Source: Tangfeifania diversioriginum
Lineage (GTDB): Bacteria; Bacteroidota; Bacteroidia; Bacteroidales; Prolixibacteraceae
Assembly: GCA_945873105.1 (NCBI GenBank)
Contig: CAMCBW010000056.1
Coordinates: 1-33,639, forward strand
Length of the DNA: 33,639 nucleotides
Direction of reading: 5' to 3'
Each line of letters begins with the position of its first letter. The stretch's first letter is position 1. Below the pieces are notes generated by a model that saw only the letters and a list, made by a program, of their open reading frames with translations, ran no database searches and was not told the origin of the DNA. Shown here piece after piece: positions 5,246 through 23,171 of the stretch. Position numbers and translations under genes: made by a program.

Positions 5246-5455
5246 CAAGTAACCGTCTAAGCACCACAAGTGGCATTCTAAGAACGACGAGTGACTGTCC
5301 AAGCATCACGGGTGACTGTCTAAGAACAACGAGTGACCTTCCAGGCATTACAAGTAATTGTCCAAGCATCACGGGTGACTGTCGAAGAACGACGAGTGAC
5401 CTTCCAGGCATCACGGGTAATTGTCTAAACACCACAAGTAATTGTCGAAGCAGGA
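5246..5455. repeat. Ten-copy 21-bp tandem repeat
   Basis: Ten consecutive units with no indel. Units begin CAAGT, CGAGT or CGGGT and end in forms of AAGCATCA, AAGAACGA or CAGGCATCA. They are degenerate, and alternate units resemble each other more than neighbours do (a higher-order period of 63 bp is visible around 5288-5413). Because 21 is a multiple of three, both the trmH frame beyond its stop and one antisense frame stay open across the array. No start codon or conserved protein supports translation. Confidence 0.9.
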
Positions 5456-9784: not shown

Positions 9785-12700
9785 ACAAGCAAAACGGTAA
9801 ACCTGAAGATGCTGCATTGCTTCGCAAAAAGGCAGAAGAAAAATTAAAATTACGCAGAGACGTTGCATGCAATGTCTCTACAGATTCAAAATCAGAACCC
9901 GACCTGCTGAAACTGATTTACGAATTGGAAGTGCATCAGATCGAACTCGAAATGCAAAACGAAGAACTTGTCATTGCAAAGGAAAGGGCTGAGCTGGCAG
10001 AAGAAAAATATACCGAGCTCTATGATTTTGCGCCTTCAGGGTACATTGCACTCTCCAAAAAAGGTGAAATTCTGGAACTGAATTTCGCTGCCGCCAATAT
10101 GCTTGAAAAGGAACGTACAAAACTGATAAATAAGCGATTTGATTATTTTGTTTCGGTTGATACGCAAACGACCTTTAATCTCTTTTTAATCGATGTTTTT
10201 ACAAGCAAAGTAAAATTAAGCTGCGAAGTAATCATAGCCACCGAAGGCAATTTGCCGATTTATGTAAATATCGACGGTATTGTTAGTCAGAACAATGAAT
10301 TGTGTCTTTTGACTTTGAATGATATTACAGAAAGAATTCGTGCAAAGAAAGAATTACAGGCAAGCGAAAAAAAATTCTGGACATTGTCGGAAAATTCCCC
10401 TGCAGTTATTTACAGGATGCTGCTTAAACCCTCTATGAAATTTGTTTATGTAAGTCCGGTAGTAACTGAAATTACAGGTTATACACCCGAAGATCATTAT
10501 GCCGACCCTGACTTAGGCTTCAAACTAGTACATCCCGACGACCGGATGATCCTTGAAAATTCAACCCATAAAACACAGGGTGAACCAATTGTAATGCGTT
10601 GGGTAAAAAAAGATGGAAAGACCATCTGGACAGAACAGCGAAATGTATTGGTTTTTGATGACGAAGGTGATCCGATCTCCATTGAAGGAATTGCAATAGA
10701 TATAACTTTACAGAAGGAGGCAGAAATTGAGCTTATCAAAGCCAAAGAACAAGCCGAAGAAAGCGAAAAGAAGTATAGGCAGCTGTACGATTCAAATCAA
10801 ATGCCGATCTCAATTTTTGAAATTGATTCGTTGAAATTCCTATCGGTAAACAATGCCATGATGCAAAAATATGGCTACACCAATGAAGAATTTCTAACCA
10901 TGACTATTCTGGATATCAGGCCTCCATCCGAAATAGAAAAAGTGAAACTAGCGGCCAGGAAAACTGATGAAGGTCTTGTAAATGCCGGCATATATCTTCA
11001 CAAAAAGAAAAACGGAGAAATCATCCATGTGGAAATTATCAGGTGCGAAATAGTTTACGATGGGAAAAGGGCAAAACTGGTTTTTGCCAATGATGTAAGT
11101 GAAAGAATAAAGATCGAGCAGGAGCTTTTACAAGTCAACAATGAATTACAAACAGCCATTGAGCAAATCAAAGAAAGCGAAGAAAAATACCGGAATATTG
11201 TTTCCATTTTACCTGATGGCGTAGTTATACATCAGGAGGGCATCGTTGTTTTTGAAAATGAGTCGGCAAGAAGAATTTTAAAAGCCAAAGATGGTGAAAG
11301 TTTAATCGGTAAAAATGCGATTGATTTTGTTCACCCAAAATCCAGGCAATTAGCCATTGGTCGCATTAACAAAGCGCTTACAGACCATCTGCAAGCCAAT
11401 CCTATGGAGGAGATTTTCCTGGATTTTGCAGGTAATTCTGTTGATGTACTGGTTACTGGCATTCCAATTAATTATGAAGGGAAAAACTCAAAATTATCTG
11501 TGTTTACCGACATTACTGAACGAAAGCAATCAGAACTTGCACTTAAACGGACTCAATCACTCCTGAAATCAAGTATTGAAAGCCTGCAGGACAATGTGTT
11601 TCTCGCAATTGATAAAAACTATTGCTACCTGAATTTTAACAAAGCACATTGGAATGCAATGAATTTCGCCTACAATGCGGATATTCAGATTGGCTTAAAT
11701 ACATTGGATTTTATTACCAATGATGCCGACAGAAAAAAAACCAAGGAAGGCTATGACAGTGCAATGAGTGGAAAGGCCCTATCGCAGATTGCAATGTACG
11801 GTGATGAAAAACCGGCCTATTATGAAAGCTTTTTTAATCCGATTTATGATGAGAACAATCATATTATTGGCGCCACGTGCTTATCCAACAACATCAGCGC
11901 ACGTTTGCAGTCAGAGGTAGAGATCAGGGCATCACAGCAATTGTTGAAAAAAGTCCTGTCAAGCCTGCTGGATGCAGTCTTCATTATTGATGCCGCTACG
12001 GTGGAGATCATCGACTGCAATCCGGCTGCTACAACGATCTTTGGCTATACCCGTGAGGAGATGATGGGTAAAACAACTGCATTTATGCACGTTGACCTGC
12101 AAGCCCTGGATCAATTTAGGCACCTTCTCTACTCCGCTGTAGAAGAAAAAGGATTCTTATTCCTGACGGATTATCATATGAGACGCAAGGATACCAGTAT
12201 TTTCCCAACAGAACATAGTGTAATACCCATCTATGACGAAAATGGCAAACGAACTGGTTGGGTAAGTACCATACGCGATATAACCGAACGCAAACAGGCA
12301 GAAGAAGCAATAAAAAAAGCGGGGTTTCACTATCAGGCGCTTATTGAAAAAGCTCCTGATGGTATTGCACTTATCGGTGCAGAAGGGAACTTCAAATATA
12401 CAAGTCCTGCTGCAAAAAAAATGTTTGGCTATAACCAAACGGATGAAGTTTCGGGCAATCCAGCCGAACACACGCATCCTGATGATTTACAAATGGTAGT
12501 GGTAGAATTGGGAAAAATATTTGGAGACCCTTCCCATACCCCTACCCTTGAATATCGGGTTAAAGACAAAATTGGCCAATGGCATTGGGTAGAAACGACC
12601 TTCAGCAATTTGTTGGCTGATCCGAGCGTAGAGTCAATCGTGCTGAATTTCCACGACATCACCGAACGTAAGTTGATGGAAGATACACAGGCTTTCCTGT

Positions 12701-15700
12701 TGCAAATCAGCAATCCTGGTTCCGACGAAAATTTCTTCGAATCACTGGCAAAATACCTTTCCCAATCCCTTGACATGGAGTATGTCTGTATTGATTTGCT
12801 GGAAGGGGACAGGCTGACTGCCAAAACACTTGCCATATACAATGAAGGGAATTTTGACCCGAATGTCTCGTACGCGTTGAAAGACACACCCTGTGGAGAG
12901 GTGATAGGAAATCACATTTGCTGTTACCCGCGAGAAGTCCGCAGTTTATTTCCTAAAGATAGTGCACTTGAAGATATAAAGGCCGAAAGCTATATTGGCA
13001 CTACGCTTTGGAGTTTTGATGGTCAACCAATCGGACTAATTGCCGTTATTGGTCAGAAGCCATTGCAAAATCAGGAATCGGCCGCTGCAGTACTAAAACT
13101 GGTATCGCTGCGGGCTGCAGGCAAACTGGAAGCAACACTGGCAGAAGAAAAGGTAAGGGAGAGCGAAGAAAAATTCAGGGTTCTAATAAAATCTACCTCA
13201 GTTGGCATTTACCTGACCGACTTAAATGGCAAATGTACTTTTGTCAATCCGAAATGGTGCGAAATGGCTCAGTTGACCTATGATGAAGCCTTGAGAGATG
13301 GTTGGATCAATGGAATTTATGAGGAAGACCGTGAGAAAGTTTTTGAAAACTGGCAGAAAATGATTGCCTCTGATGGAAACTGGGGCTATGAATATCGCTT
13401 TGGTACACCCGAAAATTTATCTTGGGTTTATGGAACAGCAAAAAGTTACAAAAATGAATCCGGAGATATTGTAGGTTTTATTGGTTCCAATGTTGATATT
13501 ACTGAGCGGAAGCAATCGGAAGCAATCATCAGGGATATTATTGAAAAAAATCCGATGTCAATTCAGATTCTGGATATGGAAGGTTATCAGGTTCAGATAA
13601 ATCCGGCACATACCAAGCTTTTTGGAGTAGAGCCACCATCCAACTATTCAATTTTCAAAGATTCACAATTATTGGCCCACGGATTTGTCAAATTTTTCGA
13701 ACGGATTAAAAAAGGAGAAGTGGTTTACTTCCCCGATTCCTACTACAATGTTCATGATGTCGACCCATCCTACCCTAATTCTCCGGTATGGGTTAAAGCA
13801 CTGGGCTTCACCTTAAATGATATGAGCGGGAACCCCTATAGAATAGTTATCATGCATGAAAACATTACTGAACGCAAAAACGCAGAAGCATTGTTGAATG
13901 ATATTATTGAAAATAATCCGATGTCGATTCAAGTTGTAGATAAAGAAGGATATACGCAAAGAGGCAATCCTGCTTTTGTCGAACTCTTCGGTGCTGTTCC
14001 TCCTCCTCATTTTTCAATTTTTGATGATTTAAAAAGTAAAAGCACTGAATTGGGAAATTTAGTTTCGCTTGTTAAAAATGGAGTGATTGTGCATTTGCCG
14101 GATATCTATTTCAATGCACATGATGCCATTGCAGAGGCACCCGATATTCCGCTTTGGATTCGGGCACTGATATTCCCCTTGAGGGATACTTCAGGTAATC
14201 CAGAACGTTTTGTTTTCATGCACGAAAACATTACAGAACGCAAGTTTGCTGAGCAGGAACTTATGAAAGCAAAAGAACTTGCTGAAGAAAGTGAGAAAAA
14301 ATTCAGGGAAATGGCAGAGCTGTTGCCACAGATAGTTTTTGAAACTGATGTACAGGGTAATCTCACCTATGTAAACAAGTTCGCTTATAAAATGACTGGC
14401 TATTCTGAACAGGATTCGATAATCGGTAAAAACACTTTGGATTTTTATATCCCTGAGGATAGGGAAAGGGCTTTGCAAAACATTAAGATGAACTTTACGA
14501 GCGGAAAACACCTGGAAAGCAATGAATACACCATGATTCGCAAGGATGGTTCCACCTTTAATATTTTAGTTTACTCAAATCCCATTTTTAAGGATGCTAA
14601 ACCTGTTGGGTTGCGGGGAATTATTGTGGATATTTCTGAACTGAAGCAAACAGAACAGGAATTAATCAAAGCAAAACTTCATGCCGAGGAAAGCGACCGC
14701 CTCAAATCAGCATTTTTAGCCAATATGAGCCACGAAATCCGCACACCAATGAACGGGATCTTAGGTTTTTCCGAATTACTGAAAGAACCCGGCTTAACGG
14801 GGGATCAACAGCAAATGTATATTGGCATCATTGAGAAAAGCGGACTACGCATGCTCAACATCATCAACAACATCATTGATATTTCGAAAATTGAAGCCGG
14901 GCTTGTTAAACTATACATCAAAGAATCAAACATCAACGAGCAATTCGAATACATCTACACTTTTTTCAAGCCTGAAGTGGAAGCCAAAGGGATGAAGCTC
15001 ACTTTCAAAAATACCCTTGCTGCAAAAGAGGCGATCATCCGCACTGACTCCGAAAAACTGTATGCCATCCTCACCAATCTTGTGAAGAATGCCATCAAAT
15101 ACACCAACGAGGGTTCCATTGAATTTGGGTACAACATGGTAGAGACGTTGCATGCAGAGACGTTGCATGCAACGTCTCTACTTGCAACGTCTCCACATTC
15201 GTTGCAATTTTATGTAAAAGACACAGGTATTGGGATTCCAAAAGAGCGGCAGTCAGCCATATTTGAGCGTTTCATACAGGCCGATGTATCGGATAAGATG
15301 GCCTACCAGGGGGCTGGTTTGGGCCTGGCCATCACCAAAGCTTACGTGGAGATGCTTGGCGGTACAATTTGGGTTGACAGCGAAGTAGGAAGAGGATCCA
15401 CCTTCTATTTCACCTTACCCTACCATGCAGGACCGGATGAAAAGAAAGCGGTTGGAAAAGCTGTTACGCTGCCAAACGAAAGGAATCAGGTCAATCCCAA
15501 AGTTCCTGGACTCAACATAATCATTGCAGAGGATGATGAAACATCTGAAATGCTTATTTACATCACCCTCAGAGAGTTTGGCAAGGAAATTGTCAAAGTT
15601 AAAACAGGCATTGAGGCGGTAGAAATTTGCCAAAATAGACCAGACATAGATTTAATACTTATGGACATTCAAATGCCAGGTTTGAATGGCTATGAAGCCA

Positions 15701-15870
15701 CAAAGCTGATCCGCGAGTTTAACAAAAACGTCGTCATCATCGCACAAACAGCTTTTGGAATGTCCGGAGACAGGGAAAAGGCTATAAATTCGGGATGCAA
15801 CGCCTACCTGTCCAAACCCATTGATAAAAATGAGTTGTTGTCATTGATACAAATGTATTTTGGGAAATGA
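9781..15870 (+). CDS. Giant cytoplasmic multi-PAS/GAF hybrid histidine kinase
   Basis: The 2029-residue protein has no membrane segment. A leader with HELEVHQIELEMQNEEL-like sequence (about 45-65) is followed by PAS repeats at about 75-183, 194-310, 327-443, 467-583, 594-708, 721-837 and 851-964; a GAF domain at 967-1120; PAS at 1129-1245, 1249-1365, 1371-1487 and 1505-1620; HisKA with phospho-acceptor His1651 in NMSHEIRTPMNG; HATPase with N box NLVKNAIKYTNEG (1766-1778), DTGIGIP and GAGLGLAIT; and a C-terminal receiver with Asp1962 in LMDIQMPG. Most PAS units end in DITERK. PAS 9 and 10 are near duplicates (DIIEKNPMSIQ and DIIENNPMSIQ). Palindromic repeats are embedded at residues 26-33 and about 1787-1806. 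It likely integrates several cytoplasmic signals together with the CheB-CheR protein; the output is unknown. Confidence 0.93.
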   Translation: MNKQNGKPEDAALLRKKAEEKLKLRRDVACNVSTDSKSEPDLLKLIYELEVHQIELEMQNEELVIAKERAELAEEKYTELYDFAPSGYIALSKKGEILELNFAAANMLEKERTKLINKRFDYFVSVDTQTTFNLFLIDVFTSKVKLSCEVIIATEGNLPIYVNIDGIVSQNNELCLLTLNDITERIRAKKELQASEKKFWTLSENSPAVIYRMLLKPSMKFVYVSPVVTEITGYTPEDHYADPDLGFKLVHPDDRMILENSTHKTQGEPIVMRWVKKDGKTIWTEQRNVLVFDDEGDPISIEGIAIDITLQKEAEIELIKAKEQAEESEKKYRQLYDSNQMPISIFEIDSLKFLSVNNAMMQKYGYTNEEFLTMTILDIRPPSEIEKVKLAARKTDEGLVNAGIYLHKKKNGEIIHVEIIRCEIVYDGKRAKLVFANDVSERIKIEQELLQVNNELQTAIEQIKESEEKYRNIVSILPDGVVIHQEGIVVFENESARRILKAKDGESLIGKNAIDFVHPKSRQLAIGRINKALTDHLQANPMEEIFLDFAGNSVDVLVTGIPINYEGKNSKLSVFTDITERKQSELALKRTQSLLKSSIESLQDNVFLAIDKNYCYLNFNKAHWNAMNFAYNADIQIGLNTLDFITNDADRKKTKEGYDSAMSGKALSQIAMYGDEKPAYYESFFNPIYDENNHIIGATCLSNNISARLQSEVEIRASQQLLKKVLSSLLDAVFIIDAATVEIIDCNPAATTIFGYTREEMMGKTTAFMHVDLQALDQFRHLLYSAVEEKGFLFLTDYHMRRKDTSIFPTEHSVIPIYDENGKRTGWVSTIRDITERKQAEEAIKKAGFHYQALIEKAPDGIALIGAEGNFKYTSPAAKKMFGYNQTDEVSGNPAEHTHPDDLQMVVVELGKIFGDPSHTPTLEYRVKDKIGQWHWVETTFSNLLADPSVESIVLNFHDITERKLMEDTQAFLLQISNPGSDENFFESLAKYLSQSLDMEYVCIDLLEGDRLTAKTLAIYNEGNFDPNVSYALKDTPCGEVIGNHICCYPREVRSLFPKDSALEDIKAESYIGTTLWSFDGQPIGLIAVIGQKPLQNQESAAAVLKLVSLRAAGKLEATLAEEKVRESEEKFRVLIKSTSVGIYLTDLNGKCTFVNPKWCEMAQLTYDEALRDGWINGIYEEDREKVFENWQKMIASDGNWGYEYRFGTPENLSWVYGTAKSYKNESGDIVGFIGSNVDITERKQSEAIIRDIIEKNPMSIQILDMEGYQVQINPAHTKLFGVEPPSNYSIFKDSQLLAHGFVKFFERIKKGEVVYFPDSYYNVHDVDPSYPNSPVWVKALGFTLNDMSGNPYRIVIMHENITERKNAEALLNDIIENNPMSIQVVDKEGYTQRGNPAFVELFGAVPPPHFSIFDDLKSKSTELGNLVSLVKNGVIVHLPDIYFNAHDAIAEAPDIPLWIRALIFPLRDTSGNPERFVFMHENITERKFAEQELMKAKELAEESEKKFREMAELLPQIVFETDVQGNLTYVNKFAYKMTGYSEQDSIIGKNTLDFYIPEDRERALQNIKMNFTSGKHLESNEYTMIRKDGSTFNILVYSNPIFKDAKPVGLRGIIVDISELKQTEQELIKAKLHAEESDRLKSAFLANMSHEIRTPMNGILGFSELLKEPGLTGDQQQMYIGIIEKSGLRMLNIINNIIDISKIEAGLVKLYIKESNINEQFEYIYTFFKPEVEAKGMKLTFKNTLAAKEAIIRTDSEKLYAILTNLVKNAIKYTNEGSIEFGYNMVETLHAETLHATSLLATSPHSLQFYVKDTGIGIPKERQSAIFERFIQADVSDKMAYQGAGLGLAITKAYVEMLGGTIWVDSEVGRGSTFYFTLPYHAGPDEKKAVGKAVTLPNERNQVNPKVPGLNIIIAEDDETSEMLIYITLREFGKEIVKVKTGIEAVEICQNRPDIDLILMDIQMPGLNGYEATKLIREFNKNVVIIAQTAFGMSGDREKAINSGCNAYLSKPIDKNELLSLIQMYFGK
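9856..9879. repeat. AGAGACGTTGCA palindrome inside the kinase gene, copy 1
   Basis: A 24-bp palindrome (AGAGACGTTGCA followed by TGCAATGTCTCT) with a single mismatch. It encodes RDVACNVS, in the reading frame that starts at its first base, within a variable stretch before the conserved ELEVHQIELEM segment. Confidence 0.9.
15139..15193. repeat. AGAGACGTTGCA palindrome cluster inside the kinase ATPase domain
   Basis: A perfect 24-bp palindrome (15156-15179: AGAGACGTTGCA then its reverse complement) is preceded by a direct copy of its left half (15139-15155) and followed by a second right half (15182-15193). It encodes the residues around ETLHAETLHATSLLATS, in a different frame from copy 1, between the N box and DTGIGIP where loop length is tolerant. 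Confidence 0.92.
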
Positions 15871-15881
15871 TCCGGGAATAA

Positions 15882-16000
15882 AAGTGCCTAAAGTGAACTA
15901 AAGTGCCTAGAGTGCCTAAAGTTATGGTTTCCCTACAACTTAACATTGTGGCGTAAGTACTTTAGGCACTCTAGGCATTTTAGGCATTCTAGGCACTTAG
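15882..16000 (+). repeat. ~118-bp AAGTGCCTA-arm element, copy 2
   Basis: Arms AAGTGCCTAAAGT and AGTGCCTAGAGTGCCTA on the left, and ACTTTAGGCACTCTAGGCA with further units on the right, surround a core that partly matches copy 3 (TCC, TGGC, AAGTACTTTAGG in register). It starts about 10 bp after the kinase stop and ends just before the GNAT-like gene. The short ORFs read across it (FRHSRH-type peptides) are artefacts. Confidence 0.8.
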
Positions 16001-23053: not shown

Positions 23054-23171
23054 GAAGTGCCTAAAGTATTTAAAGTGCCTGGAGTGCCTAAAGTTAGGGA
23101 CTCCGATCAAATCAGGATTATGGCCCAAGTACTTTAGGCACTCTAGGCACTTTAGTCACTTTAGGCACTTT
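23054..23171 (+). repeat. ~118-bp AAGTGCCTA-arm element, copy 3
   Basis: Left arm AAGTGCCTAAAGT with further units, core of about 38 bp, right arm ACTTTAGGCACTCTAGGCAC with further units. It aligns with the reverse complement of copy 1 in both arms and core. It fills the whole gap between fixH and the next gene, and its arms could fold into a transcript hairpin that attenuates the genes downstream (inference). Confidence 0.8.

Follow-up and report, generated by a model that had tools for sequence, protein, structure and literature searches.

REP-type palindromes inside a hybrid histidine kinase of Tangfeifania diversioriginum and their recurrence, with different centres, at one turn of the ATPase domain

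The stretch of DNA analysed here, hereafter the window, comprises 33,639 nucleotides of the Tangfeifania diversioriginum assembly GCA_945873105.1 (contig CAMCBW010000056.1, positions 1 to 33,639), and is part of contig C56 of a genome of 5.36 Mb in 99 contigs; G, C and L numbers serve below as handles for genomes, contigs and loci. It contains an open reading frame (ORF) for a hybrid histidine kinase, in which Pfam recognised eight stretches of PAS_9 as well as HisKA (6.7e-21), HATPase_c (4.6e-25) and Response_reg (4.7e-22), and two copies of a palindrome lie within this single ORF (Table 1). Both palindromes are very probably repetitive extragenic palindromes (REPs) of the GTAG double-foot type, spread by a REP-associated tyrosine transposase (RAYT) of the Y1/HUH kind, with one turn of the kinase ATPase domain having repeatedly taken up REPs whose centres differ. 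The name REP reflects a location between genes.

The first copy reads AGAGACGTTGCATGCAATGTCTCT at 9856-9879, with one mismatch, as had been reported in a preliminary description of the window made from the letters alone, and extends to a 28-mer once its ends are included. The second copy is expanded, and the perfect 24-bp palindrome with two half copies reported at this position was recovered, the downstream half ending at 15194 and thus one base past the end given earlier (15193). Its 29-nt arms (15139-15167 and 15168-15196) are 90% complementary and its inner arms (15139-15156 and 15164-15181) are 100% complementary across 18 nt, with a repeat period of 15 nt, equal to five codons, and 2.1 copies. 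The feet of copy 2, GTAG at 15139-15142 and CTAC at 15178-15181, are those of a GTAG double-foot REP; the 5' foot is GCAG rather than GTAG in copy 1 and in the central 28-mer of copy 2, and other genomic copies carry the GTAG foot. Folding as single-stranded DNA gave -23.2 kcal/mol for 15135-15200 (z = -7.7) and -6.5 kcal/mol for 9850-9885 (z = -2.4, with 5 of 200 shuffles equally good). The half-site matched the window eight times with at most two mismatches, against 2.25 expected and a level reached by none of 100 shuffles, and two of these matches (5236 and 20806) were unrelated hits with two mismatches.

The two copies are read in different frames, RDVACNVS at the first and VETLHAETLHATSLLATS at the second, in accordance with the frames previously assigned to them (RDVACNVS and AETLHATSL). 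More generally, GTAGAGACGTTGCATGCAACGTCTCTAC encodes VETLHATSL or RDVACNVST in two of its frames and opens with TAG in the third, and the same readings are available from both strands because the palindrome is self-complementary. The proposal that both copies sit where the protein tolerates extra residues also held: the first lies in an N-terminal linker and the second in a turn that AlphaFold2 left at low confidence. In a model of 14662-15450, the REP-coded residues (about 160-179) were placed between strands 151-161 and 179-187, and residues 163-176 had a predicted local distance difference test score (pLDDT) below 50; the model itself was modest (mean pLDDT 68.6, five sequences), and its top Foldseek matches were histidine kinases, HK853 being the best.

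Table 1. Coordinates of the kinase ORF, its domains and the palindrome copies in the window.
Feature	Position	Strand	Basis or remark
Hybrid histidine kinase ORF, 2029 aa	9781..15870	+	ORF call and Pfam
REP copy 1, 28 nt, N-terminal linker, read ...RDVACNVST	9854..9881	+	1 mismatch in 24-bp core
HisKA domain	14704..14901	+	Pfam, residues 1642-1707
HATPase_c domain, contains REP copy 2 between N box and DTGIGIP	15046..15423	+	Pfam
REP copy 2, expanded: perfect core between two half units, translated VETLHAETLHATSLLATSPH	15139..15196	+	
Upstream half copy, perfect	15141..15152	+	
Perfect 24-bp palindrome AGAGACGTTGCATGCAACGTCTCT	15156..15179	.	
Downstream half copy, 1 mismatch	15183..15194	-	
Receiver domain	15517..15849	+	Pfam, residues 1913-2023

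Searching the whole genome for the 24-bp core (core 1) with at most three mismatches returned 26 distinct sites, against none for the reversed control, which bore out the earlier suggestion of a dispersed repeat; 26 copies is a low number for a REP. Two of these sites are those in the window kinase, two lie inside a RAYT gene, and the other 22 lie outside kinase and RAYT genes. The 22 include one in a QueA gene (L020) and three whose TAG serves as the stop codon of an adjacent gene (for an S46 peptidase, for a Glu/Gln-tRNA synthetase and for a member of the APH family), and the remaining sites fall between ORFs or in ORFs without domain support over the site, as judged from ORFs and nine Pfam scans rather than from a full annotation. 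One site, on C46, is located ahead of an IF-2B domain, possibly 5' of the true start. Across 100 genomes, the core was present with at most one mismatch in 14, the genome under study included (for G049, 8 of 14 places were listed and classified).

At site 1, the repeat-coded residues had no counterpart in any of the six alignable relatives (22 of the 30 fetched loci were tried, and seven, including the window kinase, fitted the regular expression for the linker), and at site 2 loops without a REP were common. Relatives that lack the palindrome and have the same residues at both sites, named beforehand as the outcome that would mark ordinary coding DNA, were not found. That the palindromes are coding sequence that became palindromic by accident, for which the intact reading frame would speak, is exceedingly improbable: the copy number against a control of zero, the empty relatives and the presence of the palindrome in unrelated genes rule this out.

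Several side observations concern the dispersed repeat. The QueA gene carries an in-frame palindrome read RDVACNVSE in two species of the genus (L020:838-2364 of the genome under study, and L286 of G004), and in the former it lies within a long low-complexity insert. Variants whose feet differ (GTACAGAC, or GTCTGTACTG at one of the two sides) were seen at L016:1001 and L019:3782, which have common flanks as if within a longer repeat, and at L015:3575, L021:3392, L022:3672 and L023:3459. In-frame REPs of relatives (L258, L265, L283, L251 and L264) lay within FGE-sulfatase, Type ISP specificity, Eco57I methylase and class-V aminotransferase domains and, for an N6_N4 methylase, past the methylase domain.

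A RAYT gene with the same REP is present on C14 (L013:4835-5464), encoding 209 aa with a PNHVHG motif and scoring 23.7 bits for Y1_Tnp against a cut-off of 23. Of the REPs around it, one starts 123 bp upstream of the start codon and two start beyond the last sense codon, by 37 and 85 bp; the gene itself contains two more in frame. This is the arrangement that defines a REPtron, a cognate RAYT flanked by the same REP. An in-frame REP between HuH and Y, a trait of subclass 2.4 TnpA_REP, occurs in this RAYT and in that on C53. The subclass motifs are NH[IFV]H, WQ and YIxNNP, and the C14 RAYT has NHVH, WQ and YIANNV in place of the last. Among RAYT homologues, a palindrome was in frame inside 23 of the 27 that bear PNHxH, the own one included (30 loci were examined; L108 ends soon after its REP and L112 has an upstream stop). 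These internal palindromes nearly always follow the HUH strand and have many centres, some of them shared, with ends that are mostly GTAGAGAC...GTCTCTAC. As a further observation, the second own RAYT (L275:1510-1892 on C53) has a REP with a different centre, GCACGGCCGTGC, which occurs both upstream of the gene and in frame within it and is followed downstream by imperfect copies.

This agrees with PMC6006769 (2018), where subclass 2.4 TnpA_REP genes of Cyanobacteria, Bacteroidetes and others are described as holding in-frame double-foot REPs, with GTAG at one end, CTAC at the other and REPs around the gene. The likeness to protein-coding palindromic elements of Rickettsia, which had been proposed earlier, extends to the logic of a palindrome read in frame as part of a protein, the Rickettsia palindromic element (RPE) sequences being compared by description only. 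RPE-1 is a longer insert. An assignment to that kind of element is nevertheless next to impossible, as R. conorii RPE-4/6 are placed by PMC3733652 (2013) in the CGTC class. An element of that class has a CGTC terminus and no dedicated transposase; the feet here are instead GTAG...CTAC, and the genome has a RAYT that carries the same REP.

The recurrence of REPs at the loop between the N box and DTGIGIP, with different centres, goes beyond what had been described for the window. Scanning 142,188 bp in 100 kinase loci, selected for likeness to the window kinase, gave 12 REP-type palindromes, of which 11 lay in the turn before DTGIGIP and the twelfth was the linker copy of the window kinase; three other palindromes were unrelated. 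Together with loci added from other searches, this brings to 17 the kinases in which a REP occupies the turn; they belong to nine genomes and show four or five centres. All 17 REPs are read in one and the same frame, and 14 of them start exactly two codons past GGN-TAY/TGY (GY or GC). Core 1 (VETLHATSL and variants) was found in the turn of the window kinase, of G024 and of the metagenome-assembled genomes (MAGs) PNOH01000066.1, CAISJJ010000375.1 and JAUXUF010000055.1; core 2 (VETRHALSL and variants) in five own-genome kinases, G006 and G024; core 3 (VEKIHEFSL) in three G003 kinases; and core 4, which lumps two types with different centres, in G002 and G007. Core 2 was additionally found shortly after the N box in kinases of a different type (own C13 and G040). 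The searches for cores 2 and 4 covered 24 fetched loci, a subset of the places, with L306 and L311 judged on another palindrome.

Core 2 has eight sites in the own genome, six of them in kinases and five of those in the turn. Taking cores 1 and 2 together, 7 of 34 own-genome sites fall in HATPase_c domains (77 matches), which cover about 0.48% of the genome, giving a binomial probability of 3e-10 if sites are taken as independent, a figure that paralogy makes too strong.

Trees of the kinase domain were used to compare one origin with several. From 110 loci, 78 rows were obtained, the other 32 having failed the domain regular expression or duplicated a row (L160, L239, L240 and L243 duplicate kinases already in the set), and a more careful tree of 59 rows was made by removing 19 distant REP-free rows. 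A single clade of the 17 REP kinases was rejected on the 78-row quick tree with loop columns removed (approximately unbiased test, p-AU 0.009). On the 59-row tree, REP presence required 13 changes (bootstrap 10-13) against 15.0 in shuffles, of which 62-71 of 500 were as low, and at least three changes were forced by well-supported branches. Core labels were scattered as in shuffles (16 changes against 16.6; in two sets of 200 shuffles, 58 and 75 were as low), and L245 (own, core 2) paired with L252 (G003, core 3), both being long outlying rows.

Several points weigh against repeated filling by mobile REPs. On the 78-row tree, presence was clustered, with 11 changes against a shuffled mean of 15.6 and 0 of 500 shuffles as low, and 42 of 75 forks on this tree and 29 of 56 on the 59-row tree are open. 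The REP was not seen to move, and most core-1 copies lie in no known protein domain. Although core 2 is the commoner REP among the own kinases, no RAYT carrying it was found in the own genome; searching by the Y1_Tnp family also missed the C14 and C53 RAYTs, so that further RAYTs may have been missed too. The REP measures 28 nt, so that its insertion alone would shift the frame, and the observed differences in length are 12 or 15 nt.

A nucleotide-exact position in 14 of 17, like the clustering, would also be consistent with an old insertion followed by losses and swaps of the centre. Under this explanation, which I consider somewhat unlikely, one ancient insertion at the turn was inherited and sometimes lost, and its centre was later exchanged by recombination or by RAYT action on the existing REP. 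The shared frame and start speak for it, as does the codon before the REP, which is hydrophobic in 12 of 14 and Arg in the other 2, compared with Lys in the five empty loops displayed. The same holds for the clustered presence on the 78-row tree and for a supported clade of L166 (own), L205 (G006) and L220 (G003), in which all members are filled and carry two centres (cores 2, 2 and 3). The rejected single clade, the core labels that are no more clustered than in shuffles and the empty kinases interleaved with filled ones count against it.

The same core 2 at this turn in five own-genome paralogues could instead point to gene conversion between kinase paralogues, without a transposase. The 30-nt flanks of REP kinases from the same genome were no more alike than those from different genomes (upstream 0.700 and 0.707, downstream 0.772 and 0.737, in 19 same-genome and 117 different-genome pairs with same and different cores pooled), and while very short or old tracts would escape this comparison, conversion appears quite improbable.

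The lengths of the two sites bear on how a REP would arrive. The census covered 105 kinase loci, of which 22 lacked the motif regular expression and the other 83 gave 84 loops (G024:C47 was counted three times). Between the N box and DTGIGI, 47 of 69 REP-free loops had the commonest length of 37 aa and the other 22 were longer, 11 of them with 41 aa and the longest with 56; the loop of the window kinase has 54 aa. Loops with a single REP exceeded the commonest empty loop by four or five residues and the own N-terminal linker was longer by four (12 nt), as against the nine residues coded by a REP. Plain insertion is therefore not the whole story in the loop, since the gain is below nine: loop sequence was lost, the arrival was a replacement, or the ancestral empty form was longer, alternatives that also tell against simple repeated insertion. 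Of the suggestion that the repeat may insert or expand without breaking the frame, expansion in steps of 15 nt stood, and insertion is too simple a description.

For repeated filling by mobile REPs, the following mechanism is proposed. The REP, of the form GTAGAGAC-GTTGCATGCAAC-GTCTCTAC, would be mobilised by a RAYT like subclass 2.4 TnpA_REP, and the RAYT on C14, with the same REP beside and in frame inside it, is the candidate mover. The REP would survive inside genes because it is self-complementary, so that either orientation reads alike, and because two of its three frames are without a stop, and its expansion would keep the frame because the half units measure 15 nt. It would be retained only where the protein offers a flexible linker or turn, and the turn before DTGIGIP of histidine kinases would be one such place, repeatedly occupied, where REPs presumably arrive or are exchanged. 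The kinase protein is presumably made and working, and the REP is likely to be near neutral for it.

A bolder version, which I regard as rather unlikely, is that the turn is a standing docking site in which the element is swapped in place for the REP of the resident RAYT, the kinase possibly also using the turn. Since the REPs in the turn share their 28-nt length and nearly the same feet, such an in-place exchange would never lose the frame. If it were true, the kinase turn would be a record of past transposases. A rule that the core equals that of the resident RAYT was rejected in part, as no RAYT was found for own core 2 and as in three genomes the sole copy found lies in the kinase turn (core 1 in G024 at up to one mismatch, core 2 in G006 and core 4 in G002 at up to two). 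These lone copies may be relics, may have been transferred with the kinase gene, or may occupy the last tolerated place.

REPs inside such RAYTs and inside other genes are already in print, and the repeat is a known kind of mobile palindrome. In contrast to the present case, PMC6006769 concerns transposase genes and other genes only briefly, and its main text, supplements aside, contains no word that begins with kinase. PMC3733652 describes GTAG REPs inside genes of several species, with TAG supplying stop codons to flanking ORFs; its abstract assigns many of the intragenic cases to genes of replication and repair, and recB was struck at about the same site in two Xanthomonas species, while other such genes were struck at differing sites. 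Its GTAG repeats are from Proteobacteria, Cyanobacteria, Chloroflexi and the PVC group, Bacteroidetes being named for CGTC only in the text covered, and the word kinase occurs there once, in the reference list (the target-ORF table of Additional file 3 aside), whereas here one turn is filled in 17 kinases. In the part of PMC2817692 covered, a kinase is mentioned merely as a neighbouring gene. A description of REPs recurring in the histidine kinase turn was not found in a limited open-access literature searched with few terms, supplements aside.

Other repeats were seen in the window. A 9-bp unit (AAGTGCCTA/ACTCTAGGC) forms short intergenic arrays at 2531-2648, 15881-15998 and 23131-23171, which face each other in pairs at the first two positions, the array at 15881-15998 lying right after the kinase stop, and positions 5248-5452 hold an array with a 21/63-bp unit.

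Part of a catalytic domain appears to have been supplied by mobile DNA on more than one occasion. A mobile hairpin would provide nine residues of this domain at a fixed place, with interchangeable centres, across nine genomes that comprise two genera by kinship code and the three named MAGs. The filled, empty and swapped alleles would form a natural series on the target choice of RAYTs and on the worth of REP-coded peptides, and alignments of Bacteroidota kinases can include transposon-derived residues that mislead.

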